Below, piece by piece: positions 27,974-31,595 of a DNA stretch of 64,000 nucleotides. The notes beneath the pieces were generated by a model, which did no database searches, had not been told where the DNA came from, and worked only from the letters and a program-made list of their open reading frames with translations. Location of the stretch: positions 62,001 through 126,000 of the forward strand of contig NZ_JAUQSW010000005.1 of the NCBI RefSeq assembly GCF_030581075.1. Direction: 5' to 3'. Each line of letters begins with the position of its first letter. Positions within the stretch are counted from its first letter, which is position 1. The DNA is from Hymenobacter cheonanensis. GTDB taxonomy: Bacteria; Bacteroidota; Bacteroidia; Cytophagales; Hymenobacteraceae. The position numbers and the translations under genes are program-made.

Positions 27974-28074
27974 ATAAAATATTCATTTTATAAAAATCTG
28001 ATTTTCAGGCATTAAAAAAAGCAAGTTTCCTTTTGCTACGTATTTATACATAACCTGTGCTAGTGGTTAAGTGG

Positions 28075-28082
28075 TATCTTTG
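28075..28082 (+). promoter_or_regulatory. -7 promoter element of the Crp/Fnr regulator gene
   Basis: TATCTTTG matches TAnnTTTG and lies 30 nt upstream of the ATG at 28113. No clear -33 element is visible. Confidence 0.5.
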
Positions 28083-28112
28083 ATTGATTCTAATATTGTA
28101 AAACCAGCTAGT

Positions 28113-28823
28113 ATGAGCCGTTTTGCTTCTCCAAACTGTCATTCTTGCCCTAGCCGCCAAAGCCCGCTGCTGGGGTGCTGCCTGGCTGATGAATTGGAAT
28201 TTATCGCCACCACTAAGTCGGCGCAGTTTTACCAAAAGGGCCAGGCTATCTACCAGCAGGGCAACCCCGTGCTTGGCATGCACTGCATTCATCAGGGTAA
28301 GGTGAAGCTGGCCAAAGTGGGCGGCGATGGCAAGGAGCACATTACGCGGCTGGTGCACCACGGCGATGTGCTGGGCGTGCGGGCAATGCTGAGCGGCGGG
28401 CAGTACTCGACCTCGGCAGTGGCGCTCGATGACTGCGTGGTGTGTTTTGTGCCGCGGCCCGATGTGCTGCGGCTTATCCAGTCCAACCGGCAGTTTTCCA
28501 ACACGCTGCTTCAAATGCTGGCTACCAGCCTGGGCGAAGCCGAAGAGCAGCTGCTGCGCTTGGCCTACAAGCCCGTGCGCGAGCGCCTGGCCGAAGCCCT
28601 GCTGCTGGTGCGCCGCACCTTCGACTCGGCCGGGGCGCCGGGCGAGCCGTTCACCATTGCCCTCTCGCGCGAAGACCTGGCCGCCCTGGTGGGCACGGCC
28701 AAAGAAACCGTGAGCCGCCTGCTCACCGAATACAAGGATGCAGGCATTGTGGCCACCCGGGGCAGCCAGATAATGCTGCTCGAAGAAGGGCGGCTGCTCG
28801 CCATCTCTACCCGCTACGACTAA
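28113..28823 (+). CDS. Crp/Fnr-family transcription regulator with N-terminal Cys cluster
   Basis: 236-aa regulator. An N-terminal cysteine-rich tag has C9, C12, C22 and C23 (NCHSCPSRQSPLLGCC), resembling the Fe-S ligands of FNR (C-x2-C-x5-C). A cyclic-nucleotide-binding-type beta barrel (about residues 35-140) includes CIHQGKVKLAKVGGDGKEH and a further Cys pair in DDCVVCFVPRP, where FNR has its fourth ligand. The dimerisation helix and C-terminal helix-turn-helix follow: ALSREDLAALVGTAKETVSR; the E-x2-SR pattern matches the FNR recognition helix. It may therefore respond to oxygen, nitric oxide or redox. Start ATG 28113 is used, as the upstream extension is not supported. Confidence 0.9.
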   Translation: MSRFASPNCHSCPSRQSPLLGCCLADELEFIATTKSAQFYQKGQAIYQQGNPVLGMHCIHQGKVKLAKVGGDGKEHITRLVHHGDVLGVRAMLSGGQYSTSAVALDDCVVCFVPRPDVLRLIQSNRQFSNTLLQMLATSLGEAEEQLLRLAYKPVRERLAEALLLVRRTFDSAGAPGEPFTIALSREDLAALVGTAKETVSRLLTEYKDAGIVATRGSQIMLLEEGRLLAISTRYD

Positions 28824-28967: not shown

Positions 28968-28981
28968 TTGACGAAAGTCAA
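28968..28981. promoter_or_regulatory. Palindrome TTGAC-N4-GTCAA, FNR/CRP-like operator (site 1)
   Basis: TTGACGAAAGTCAA is a perfect 5+4+5 inverted repeat, the spacing of FNR/DNR-type boxes (TTGAT-N4-ATCAA). It lies 145 nt after the stop of a Crp/Fnr regulator gene and 228 nt before the Roadblock-like gene start. Binding is inferred. Confidence 0.65.
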
Positions 28982-28989
28982 AGAAATAT

Positions 28990-29003
28990 TTGACGAATGT
29001 CAT
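28990..29003. promoter_or_regulatory. Palindrome TTGAC-N4-GTCAT, FNR/CRP-like operator (site 2)
   Basis: TTGACGAATGTCAT repeats site 1 with one outer mismatch. Centre-to-centre distance to site 1 is 22 bp, about two helical turns, so two dimers could sit on the same face of the DNA. Confidence 0.6.
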
Positions 29004-29209
29004 TTTTTATAATATGCCTGTAATAGAGCTTTGTAACAGCTGAAAGGGACGTTTTAACGCTTGCTAAGCCCGCTTGCTTTGTCGGCATAAAATGCGCTGT
29101 TCAGTATGTCTCATAAATTTTATCCTATTAGCCAAATTCAACAACGGCTTGCCTGGCAGGTACACGCTGCCCGGCAAAACCCCGGCGGGACCTCAGTTGC
29201 CCGTGCGCT

Positions 29210-29653
29210 ATGAAGTTACCTTTTCTCCGCTACCTGCCCGGCCTGGGCAGCCCGCCGGTTCGCCAGGTGGTGGGCGGGCCCGGCACCCCTAGTGCCCCGG
29301 CCGAAGCCGCCCTGCACTACTTGCTGGCCGAGCTGCCCGAGCTGTTGCTGGCAGCCGTGCTGGACCTGCCTACGGGCCAGCTGCTGGCTACTTATGCGGC
29401 CGAGCGCGGCTATCAGCCCAGCCTGCTGGCGGCCCCGGTGGCGGCGGTGGTGCAGCTGCTACAGCAGCAAAGCCCGCCCCCCGAGCAGCCGGTTGAAGTG
29501 CTGCTGACGCTGGCCAGCCAGCTGCACCTGGTGCGGCTGCGCTCGGGTAGCCAGCAGGTGCTGTTTCTGGCCGTCGGCAGCCACGATACCAACCTGGCGC
29601 TGCTGCGCCAGCTGGCCGAAAATGCCGTGCAGCTACTCGAAACTACTAGCTAA
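29210..29653 (+). CDS. Roadblock/LC7-like small protein A
   Basis: 147-aa protein with the fold pattern of Roadblock/LC7 proteins: an N-terminal helix (AALHYLLAELPELLLAAVLD), a strand and turn with PTGQLLATYA, a helix with Gln/Pro, strand pair VEVLLTLASQLHLVRLRSG and VLFLAVGSHDTNLALLRQLA at the C-terminus. The core of the gene at 30567-30947 shares the same architecture and the DTNLA motif, so the two are paralogues. Roadblock proteins usually regulate small GTPases (e.g. MglB with MglA); no GTPase gene is in this cluster. It precedes a membrane protein gene by 63 nt and could be cotranscribed. Confidence 0.65.
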   Translation: MKLPFLRYLPGLGSPPVRQVVGGPGTPSAPAEAALHYLLAELPELLLAAVLDLPTGQLLATYAAERGYQPSLLAAPVAAVVQLLQQQSPPPEQPVEVLLTLASQLHLVRLRSGSQQVLFLAVGSHDTNLALLRQLAENAVQLLETTS

Positions 29654-29715
29654 GGCGCTGCTCGCGCTCCGCTTTCTTCCTCCCGCTTTTCACCTTTTTT
29701 CCCTCCCTCTTTTCT

Positions 29716-30414
29716 ATGAAGCTCACGGCTACCCCTTTCGACCCTCAGACCGGCGAACTCCTGCCCGTGTACCGCGATGCGTATCTGCGCGGCGATTTGG
29801 CCCGGGCTTCGGCCCAAGCCGTGGAGGACTACCTGCACCGCGATGCCGGCCAGGCGCACTCCACCGTTACGCGCTGGCACCAGCTGCATACCGAAGAGGC
29901 CGCGGCCGCCCCTGGCTGGGTGCAGCAGCAGCTCACCTTCATCCGCGAGCAGCCCCAGCGCTTCCGCCGCCGCGCCCTGAGCCTGGTAACGGTGAGCGCC
30001 CTGCTGGCCGGCGTGAGCATGGCCGCCACCAACCACCCATCCAACGTGCTGCCCATCACCAGGCTGCCCGTGGCCAGCGCCCTGCCCGCCGTGGCCAGCC
30101 TCGAAGCGGTGGCCCCCAGCGCCGCCTCAGCCGCGGCCGCCAGCCGCACCGTGCTGCTGCACGGCCGCATCCTGAACGAGAAAGGCCAGCCGCTGGCCGG
30201 CGCCACCGTGCTGCGCAAAGGCACCAGCCAGGGCACCAGCACCGATGCCCAGGGCAACTACTCGCTGCGCGTGCCCGCCGATGGCCTGGCCACGCTGCAA
30301 TACGGCTACGGGGGCTATACCGAGCAGGAAGTAGCCGCTGGCCAGGCCAAGGCCGGCGAAGCCGTGACGCTGCAGCCTAAAGCTCCTAAGCGCAAGCACT
30401 GGCTCTTTTTCTAA
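29716..30414 (+). CDS. Single-pass membrane protein with CarboxypepD_reg-like C-terminus
   Basis: 232-aa protein. The N-terminal 85 residues are cytoplasmic and helical (EDYLHRDAGQAHSTVTRWHQ; VQQQLTFIREQPQRFRRRAL). A helix about 90-107 (LSLVTVSALLAGVSMAA) anchors it, then a Pro/Ala-rich linker leads to a periplasmic carboxypeptidase-regulatory-like (beta-sandwich) domain: VLLHGRILNEKGQPLAGATV, TSTDAQGNYSLRVPADGLAT and a final RKHWLFF-type basic/aromatic tail. It lies between two Roadblock-like genes on the same strand. By position it may be a membrane partner of both, but the role is unknown. Confidence 0.7.
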   Translation: MKLTATPFDPQTGELLPVYRDAYLRGDLARASAQAVEDYLHRDAGQAHSTVTRWHQLHTEEAAAAPGWVQQQLTFIREQPQRFRRRALSLVTVSALLAGVSMAATNHPSNVLPITRLPVASALPAVASLEAVAPSAASAAAASRTVLLHGRILNEKGQPLAGATVLRKGTSQGTSTDAQGNYSLRVPADGLATLQYGYGGYTEQEVAAGQAKAGEAVTLQPKAPKRKHWLFF

Positions 30415-30566
30415 TACTTTGACTTACCAGGGCCTAGCCGCCCTTGCCCGACGACGTGAAAGCGAAAACCTACCGCAAACTAGTCGCCCGCAAACTCCAA
30501 GAAGACGCACTAAAACTGCAGCAAGCTTTACCCATTACCCCCCCTAATACCCCTTCCTTAGCCAAC

Positions 30567-30947
30567 ATGGCCTACTCTAAGAATAGCCCCGCCGGGCAAG
30601 CAGTTGAAGCAATTATTACCGATTTGCCGGGCCTGATGGCCGTGGCCATAGTAGATGTTCAGTCGGGCATGGCCCTGGCTTCGCACTCCAACACGCCCAG
30701 CATCAACCCGGAAACCGCCGCCGCCTACAATACCGAAGTAGTAAAGCAAAAGCAGAAAGCTATGGCCGCTCTCAAGCTGCAGGGCGAAACGATTGAGGAC
30801 ATCCTCATCACCCTCACCAACCAGCTGCACCTGCTCAAGCTGAACCCGGCCGGCAGCAAGTTTATTTACCTCGTGGTGAATTCGCGTGATACCAACCTGG
30901 CCATTGCCCGCGAGGTGCTGCGCTCGCACGCGGCCAGCATCAACTAA
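30567..30947 (+). CDS. Roadblock/LC7-like small protein B
   Basis: 126-aa cytoplasmic protein, MAYSKNSPAGQAVEAIITDL, with VAIVDVQSGMALASHS (the strand-turn of Roadblock folds), a long helix with KQKQKAMAALKLQGETIEDI, then ILITLTNQLHLLKLNPAG and FIYLVVNSRDTNLAIAREVL. It matches the gene at 29210-29653 in motif order, including the QLHLxxL and RDTNLA or HDTNLA ends. ATG 30567 is preferred; an in-frame extension to 30444 has no ATG and is probably the spacer. Followed by a terminator at 30981. Confidence 0.7.
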   Translation: MAYSKNSPAGQAVEAIITDLPGLMAVAIVDVQSGMALASHSNTPSINPETAAAYNTEVVKQKQKAMAALKLQGETIEDILITLTNQLHLLKLNPAGSKFIYLVVNSRDTNLAIAREVLRSHAASIN

Positions 30948-30980
30948 CCTGTTTCCTGCGCTAAAACACGGCTAGCACGA

Positions 30981-31007
30981 GCCCGGTCGCCCAGCGGCCG
31001 GGCTTTT
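30981..31007 (+). terminator. Terminator of the Roadblock cassette
   Basis: Stem GCCCGG/CCGGGC (30981-30986, 30998-31003) followed by TTTT, 34 nt after the stop. Confidence 0.65.
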
Positions 31008-31076: not shown

Positions 31077-31595
31077 ATGAAATCCAAGAAGTCGAAAGCT
31101 CCGGCCGCGCCCCGCGCCGCCAAGTTTTGGCCCGCGCTGGGCTTTGCCGCCCTCACAGGCTCGCGCGCTACCAGCGGCCCCATGTTTCTCAGCGATTATC
31201 TGTCGAGCCGCGCGCTGGCGCCGGGCATGGCTAAGTCGCCGTTGCGCCTGCTGGCCAAGCCCGGCGTGGCTAGCCTGCTCAAGGTGCTGACGGCCGGCGA
31301 GCTGGTGGGCGATAAGTTGCCCAACACCCCCAACCGCATTGTACCGCAGCAGCTTACCACCCGCGCCGCCTCGGGCGCGCTGGTAGGGGCCACCTGGTAC
31401 AAGAGCCAGGGCGGTAGTGCCCTCAAAGGGGCTCTAGTGGGCAGCCTGGGTGCCGTGGCCGCCACCTTCCTGACCTTTTACTTGCGCAAGGGTATCAGCG
31501 AAAAAACGGGTATCGACTCCGCCACCGTCGGGGCGGGCGAGGATGCCCTGGTGCTGGCCGGCGGCGTGGCCCTCAGCCCCAAGCCCAAGCGCTAA
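31077..31595 (+). CDS. DUF4126-like membrane protein
   Basis: 172-aa protein with a Lys-rich start (MKSKKSKAPAAPRAAKFWPA) and several short hydrophobic helices. LLKVLTAGELVGDKLPNTPN, then RAASGALVGATWYKSQGG and ALKGALVGSLGAVAATFLTF, closely follow the DUF4126 pattern (GExxGDKLPxTPxR, small-residue membrane helices). Function of the family is unknown. ATG 31077 chosen because it begins just before the basic segment; an upstream in-frame start adds 13 unlikely residues. Confidence 0.75.
   Translation: MKSKKSKAPAAPRAAKFWPALGFAALTGSRATSGPMFLSDYLSSRALAPGMAKSPLRLLAKPGVASLLKVLTAGELVGDKLPNTPNRIVPQQLTTRAASGALVGATWYKSQGGSALKGALVGSLGAVAATFLTFYLRKGISEKTGIDSATVGAGEDALVLAGGVALSPKPKR

Follow-up and report, generated by a model that had tools for sequence, protein, structure and literature searches.

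Roadblock/LC7 proteins typically bind small GTPases, and they have mostly been studied as partners of these enzymes. Among the closest known counterparts of the family described below is MglC, a Roadblock homodimer that links RomR to MglB, with residues F25, D26 and I28 binding MglB and residues K104, R106 and R110 binding RomR (PMC10329633). Orphan Roadblock proteins are also common: none had been characterised as of 2014, and, since 328 of 749 MglB homologues are orphans, a GTPase partner is not obligatory (PMC4316618). Here, we analyzed a three-gene cassette of Hymenobacter cheonanensis in which two Roadblock-like proteins flank a membrane protein, and compared it with these systems.

The cassette lies in a DNA stretch of 64,000 nucleotides (hereafter the window, meaning the whole stretch that was analyzed), and all of its genes are on the forward (+) strand. 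Gene A (29210-29653) encodes a protein of 147 aa that is a divergent, putative Roadblock paralogue of B, gene M (29716-30414) a single-pass membrane protein of 232 aa, and gene B (30456-30947) an MglC-like Roadblock protein of 163 aa with a basic N-terminal tail. The N-terminal motif of A, M-x-[IL]-P-F-[LF], was found in 45 of the 52 genes located directly upstream of M. The first-pass annotation of this DNA had placed the three genes on one strand and ended them in a terminator; the coordinates of A, M and B bear out the former, and a GC-rich hairpin of 12 bp with TTTT behind it on the same strand (30979-31005, z -3.3) is the probable terminator. The neighbours of the cassette are a CRP/FNR gene, a DUF4126 gene and lpd, and in most strains the main locus has odhAB and the CRP/FNR gene on one side and lpd on the other. 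The gene for the DUF4126-like membrane protein (31077-31595) is located between B and lpd and often adjoins the cassette in relatives.

Of the 48 loci in which a B-type gene follows M, 41 encode the tail VK[AP][KR][TS]YRK or something close to it, and the start of gene B was therefore placed at GTG 30456, which is likely to be correct and gives the 163-aa product. The start used in the first gene call, ATG 30567, was replaced since the conserved tail lies upstream of it; the ORF listing had read the gene from TTG 30444. In the AlphaFold model and in all multiple alignments, B begins at ATG 30567, so the tail is not included, and residue numbers within the Roadblock domain of B are also counted from this codon.

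A whole-genome search indicated that A and B are the only two copies of their family in this genome and that they share 32% identity (E 5.6e-13), in agreement with the paralogy proposed at the outset. Scans of both proteins against Pfam, NCBIfam and PADLOC gave nothing useful, and Pfam Robl_LC7 (PF03259) did not match either of them even at E<=10. An AlphaFold model of the B domain, built with 72 sequences from the window and related loci (pLDDT 93.6, pTM 0.87), has the topology H-E-E-H-E-E-E-H, which matches the Roadblock/LC7 superfamily fold. When this model was searched against the PDB using Foldseek, 113 matches were obtained at E <= 0.001, the best 50 of which were all Roadblock-fold proteins with MglB in first place (E 4.6e-7); Asgard (archaeal) Roadblock proteins, MglC (7ct3) and Ragulator subunits are among the matches listed. 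HHalign comparisons with the Robl_LC7 alignment gave weak scores (probabilities of 52.6% for profile A7 and 19.7% for profile A4), and the Roadblock claim therefore rests on structure and genomic context. The fold was taken as decisive for membership of the superfamily, of which the Pfam model is one sequence profile. Judged by its predicted fold, B belongs to the Roadblock/LC7 superfamily, and the B family is a Roadblock family missed by Pfam, while A would be a Roadblock protein by its homology to B. The initial description of the small proteins as Roadblock-like was thus upheld by the model and PDB matches for B, whose fold did not turn out to be an unrelated one, and by homology for A, with Pfam silent on both.

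Among profiles A1, A6 and A7 of the family, only A7, which was built from distant members, reached MglC: this protein (7ct3) was its best PDB match (E 6.5e-4), with nearly all of MglC covered, and neither the Hymenobacter profile (A1) nor the mixed one (A6) retrieved anything relevant from the PDB. A single family member also matched MglC in a phmmer comparison (E 8.3e-4). The positions of the FDI motif of MglC read V, Q and M in B, so that the motif is not kept. R106 and R110 of MglC align with Arg115, which is near-invariant, and Arg119 of B, and K104 aligns with I.

The membrane protein M consists of a cytosolic domain, a single transmembrane (TM) segment and a periplasmic domain, a layout also found in membrane anti-sigma factors. 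Its predicted cytosolic part (residues 1-86; 29716-29973, + strand) is an anti-sigma-like domain preceded by a near-invariant segment, PF-x3-TGELLPVYRDAYLRGDL, which is seen at the N-terminus of M as GELLPVYRDAYLRGDL; the first 20 residues are near-invariant and, according to the alignment, not shared by the ECF-linked proteins described below. It is followed by the only hydrophobic segment (residues 87-105; 29974-30030, + strand; Kyte-Doolittle maximum at residue 87), which is Arg-rich on the N-terminal side, with an RFRRR motif at the cytosolic side, and corresponds to a helix at residues 80-103 in a moderate AlphaFold model (pLDDT 72.8, pTM 0.39). The periplasmic transthyretin-like/SusC-NTE domain (residues 145-219; 30148-30372, + strand) was detected by both Pfam (CarbopepD_reg_2, E 8e-14, residues 149-211) and Foldseek, whose best match was the NTE domain of SusC-dex (9hfj, E 4e-9, TM-score 0.90 by target). 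The single-pass architecture with a carboxypeptidase-regulatory-like periplasmic domain, as originally assigned to M, agrees with these results. In addition, the C-terminus of M carries a conserved tail of basic and aromatic residues, [KR]-[KR]-H-W-x-x-F (30390-30414).

When residues 1-107 of M were used as a profile, weak matches (E 0.001-0.1) appeared in nine genomes, none of them from the two genera that carry M; over approximately 290 genomes these E-values alone are not significant, and it is the sigma context of the matches that serves as evidence. This context was inspected in six of the nine genomes, and all six matching proteins are encoded directly downstream of ECF sigma genes. Pfam confirmed five of these sigma proteins, and the remaining one (L252) is an almost identical congener of L251. 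Some of the ECF-linked proteins also hit NCBIfam anti-sigma or Pfam RskA_C. Because the matching proteins sit directly downstream of ECF sigma genes, the cytosolic N-terminus of M appears to resemble ECF anti-sigma factors, a similarity that is weak in any single genome (E 0.001-0.08). No ECF sigma gene was found near M in the loci examined. Besides M itself, two genomes of the Hymenobacter group encode longer M-like proteins, with an anti-sigma-like N-terminus and a SusC-NTE-like C-terminus, directly beside a gene for a bacteriorhodopsin-like protein (L256:2646-4377 and L257:2148-3948).

The cassette had first been reported to encode no GTPase, which was confirmed here and extends to the whole genome: no MglA-type GTPase and no Pfam Robl_LC7 protein was found in either the cassette or the genome. 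The MglA-like matches obtained with the Arf and Roc profiles were only the housekeeping GTPases IF-2, Der, Era, HflX and MnmE, which were identified by frame size, sequence or position. B relatives lie beside an MglA-family GTPase in five distant Bacteroidota loci (L177, L178, L217, L218 and L234), all but L217 of which also hold a second Roadblock protein of the Robl_LC7 type (above the cut-off at L178, L218 and L234, and by genome search for L177). The GTPases beside B relatives carry ATPGQ or GTPGQ in G3, and GTPGQ is a hallmark of MglA groups 2-5 (PMC4316618). Among 241 Cytophagales genomes, Robl_LC7 was detected above the cut-off in two (G202 and G265), which are exactly those with the GTPase-type operon. 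At L217 (8680-9501), a receiver domain is fused to a C-terminal B-like Roadblock domain beside the GTPase gene, an arrangement that recalls, by analogy, RomR and MglC united in a single polypeptide.

A SpoIIE-type phosphatase is encoded beside B relatives at three other loci (scored by Pfam at L179 and L181, and recognized by sequence at L180), together with SiaC at L179. In the latter locus (L179:230-2868), the B relative, a small protein, the phosphatase and SiaC are arranged in a row, much like a partner-switching unit of the SiaABC type that includes a Roadblock protein. Four loci from genomes of the same class (L219, L220, L223 and L224) possibly hold Roadblock-only pairs: each has a B relative and a small Robl_LC7-like protein, some of which score below the Pfam cut-off, with no GTPase and nothing else obvious. 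The co-occurrence with Robl_LC7 and GTPase genes independently supports the Roadblock assignment of the B family. Moreover, since distant B relatives sit in GTPase or phosphatase operons, an ancestral link of the family with GTPase or PP2C signalling is suggested.

Upstream of the cassette, a CRP/FNR-family regulator is encoded on the + strand (28071-28823; likely start ATG 28113), with matches to cNMP_binding (5e-22) and HTH_Crp_2 (1e-14) in Pfam and, as its best NCBIfam match, FnrL (1e-23, below the cut-off). The marks of an FNR-type protein, namely the CRP fold, conserved cysteines and an E-x2-SR helix, are all present: cysteines C23, C26, C36/C37 and C125 are at FNR-like positions, C23, C26, C37 and C125 occur in 47 of 48 regulator homologues, and the recognition helix is of the E-T-x-S-R type (KETVSR). 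The regulator gene lies directly upstream in 46 of the 52 M-containing loci and in none of the 25 other loci (two of which hold M without a preceding Roadblock gene). The sequence upstream of A contains a perfect FNR-type palindrome, TTGACGAAAGTCAA (28968-28981), and a second, conserved box, TTGACGAATGTCATTTT (28990-29006), with the consensus TGAY-N4-RTCATTTT. This consensus has three occurrences in the whole genome, as does the reversed control pattern, and the cassette copy is the only one of the three genome matches with both the TGAC and GTCA halves. The 500 bases preceding the first gene hold a perfect TGAC-N4-GTCA site at 17 of the 52 M loci and at none of the 25 others, the loci being related to each other. 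The FNR-like regulator is a probable controller of the cassette, acting via the two palindromes, and because of its FNR-like cysteines it is possibly oxygen-sensing. The start of B, the anti-sigma-like part of M, this regulator with its presumed operator, and the GTPase genes beside distant relatives are all additions to the first-pass annotation.

The genome search for the three-gene order that the first-pass annotation had proposed showed the order to recur in tens of species: of 77 related loci, 46 carry Roadblock-M-Roadblock on one strand, almost all of them from Hymenobacter, although the loci come from named genomes and are mutually related, so that such counts are not independent. This gene order is far beyond chance. 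M was found 54 times in the set of related loci, and the commonest locus form carries one more upstream Roadblock gene, which is absent in the window. Within the host's taxonomic family, 59 of the 150 genomes sampled (two of six genera) have B-family genes, usually in 2-10 copies; the corresponding figures are 47 of 390 sampled genomes for the order and 25 of 395 for the phylum Bacteroidota. The cassette-type M was observed only in Hymenobacter (g1) and in genus g5, which belongs to the same family, and the genomes with this M have B-family genes as well. Second M copies with B genes are located at unrelated loci (L045, L048 and L050), broken cassette copies were seen in two genomes (G053 and G098), and several Hymenobacter genomes have lost the cassette. 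In L078 (6001-6378 and 7809-8258), and also in L040 and L039, long stretches of the upstream stand-alone Roadblock copy are nearly identical to the downstream cassette copy of the same locus, which suggests gene conversion or recent partial duplication. No B-family relative was found in the viral contigs searched, leaving a phage origin unsupported, and a defence-system reading was rejected in view of the lack of PADLOC matches for A, M or B. In the literature searched on Roadblock proteins together with Hymenobacter, Bacteroidota or anti-sigma factors, no description of the cassette was found.

Our preferred reading, held tentatively and with slightly less than even confidence, is that A-M-B forms a membrane-tethered, GTPase-free MglC-like Roadblock adaptor module with M as its receptor or scaffold, apparently after loss of a GTPase. 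In favour of this reading are the fold of B, the MglC match, the two arginines of B that align with the RomR-binding surface of MglC, the anti-sigma resemblance of M, the operon partners of distant relatives, and the conservation of gene order, regulator and box; the moderate model of M, the weakness of the anti-sigma similarity, the lack of a nearby ECF sigma gene, the deviating cysteine spacing of the regulator, the presence of a perfect site in only 17 of 52 related loci and the missing FDI motif weigh against it. M would be placed in the inner membrane by its one TM helix, with the NTE/transthyretin-like domain in the periplasm and the anti-sigma-type domain in the cytosol, and A and B would probably pair with each other and probably associate with M at its cytosolic part. 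Bound in this way, they may serve as an adaptor platform, much as MglC bridges RomR and MglB, and not act on a small GTPase. The module would sense the envelope and pass the signal to a downstream output, and its level, set by the FNR-like regulator via the two palindromes, would follow the oxygen or redox state. A bolder version, which we regard as unlikely, is that the cassette is a convergent counterpart of Ragulator, in which a transmembrane anti-sigma-like protein holds a Roadblock heterodimer at the inner membrane as a GTPase-independent signalling platform, and expression under a dedicated FNR-like regulator lets envelope and redox signals be combined.

The main rival to the adaptor module, rather unlikely in our view, holds that M genuinely acts as an anti-sigma factor on an ECF sigma from another locus and that A and B are partner-switching regulators of its grip on sigma. 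The resemblance of the M N-terminus to ECF-linked anti-sigma proteins speaks for it, as do the SpoIIE phosphatase and SiaC genes that adjoin B relatives in other Bacteroidota; however, genes for ECF sigma and anti-sigma factors usually lie side by side, which is not the case in any of the M loci examined, and the near-invariant segment before the anti-sigma-like part of M is absent from the ECF-linked proteins. It is distinctly improbable that A and B regulate a GTPase in trans, either a housekeeping enzyme (for example HflX or Era) or one too divergent to recognize. Such a role would suit the usual partners of Roadblock proteins and the MglA-family GTPases that adjoin B relatives, but the Arf and Roc profiles reveal only housekeeping GTPases in this genome, and the orphan MglB homologues cited above are common.

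Since the cassette, together with the regulator, lies between odhAB and lpd in most strains, it might also be regarded as an expression-level or metabolic accessory of the flanking 2-oxoglutarate dehydrogenase locus; the second M copies at unrelated loci and the lack of any enzyme domain in A, M or B argue against this idea, and we give it little credence. Finally, the broken copies and the losses would be expected of a relic of a former GTPase system that evolves with little function, whereas the protein cores, tails, gene order and operator are conserved across tens of species and the family has repeatedly expanded, up to 10 copies per genome, making this the least probable of the explanations considered.

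The B family is a clean natural series in which one Roadblock lineage is found with an MglA-family GTPase, a PP2C phosphatase, a second Roadblock protein, or a membrane protein only. This series would allow a direct test of the role of a Roadblock protein without a GTPase, and of the re-use of an anti-sigma-type domain as a Roadblock receptor. At the same time, a Roadblock family that escapes the Pfam model comes to light across the sampled Bacteroidota.

Each part of the cassette has counterparts among known systems. The regulator shares with E. coli FNR and FnrL the CRP fold, an FNR-like cysteine set, the E-x2-SR helix and the TTGAC-N4-GTCAA half-site arrangement, but its C-x2-C-x10-C spacing differs from that of E. 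coli FNR, it falls below the NCBIfam equivalog cut-offs, and it is apparently dedicated to one locus. M is similar to membrane-anchored ECF anti-sigma factors (RskA-like and FecR-like) in having an N-terminal helical domain, one TM helix and a C-terminal periplasmic domain, and differs from them in the extra near-invariant N-terminal segment and in being accompanied by Roadblock genes instead of an adjacent ECF sigma gene. MglB and other Robl_LC7 GAP proteins, as well as CvnB of the Streptomyces conservons, have the same predicted fold as B, and distant B relatives share operons with Robl_LC7 and MglA-family GTPase genes as in MglB-type systems. In contrast, A and B are missed by Pfam Robl_LC7, and no GTPase, histidine kinase or DUF742 gene accompanies them; the conservon (Cvn) set of histidine kinase, Roadblock, DUF742 and GTPase in one operon was not found among the window ORFs by Pfam. 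Ragulator/LAMTOR of eukaryotes is comparable by analogy only, in that Roadblock pairs are held at a membrane, and the cassette differs in having no known p18/LAMTOR1 homologue and no Rag-type GTPase. MglC of Myxococcus xanthus (PDB 7ct3 and 7cy1; PMC7949163, PMC10329633) differs from the cassette in its FDI motif, which is lost in B, and in the N-terminal tails and the two paralogues flanking a membrane protein, and the cassette genome differs from that of MglC in that no MglA or Robl_LC7 protein was found. Nevertheless, MglC likewise has a single Roadblock domain of approximately 120 aa and a second Roadblock partner, and two of its three basic residues that contact RomR (R106 and R110) are kept in B. 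Thus, B is not classed as MglC, but it plausibly works like MglC, as an adaptor.
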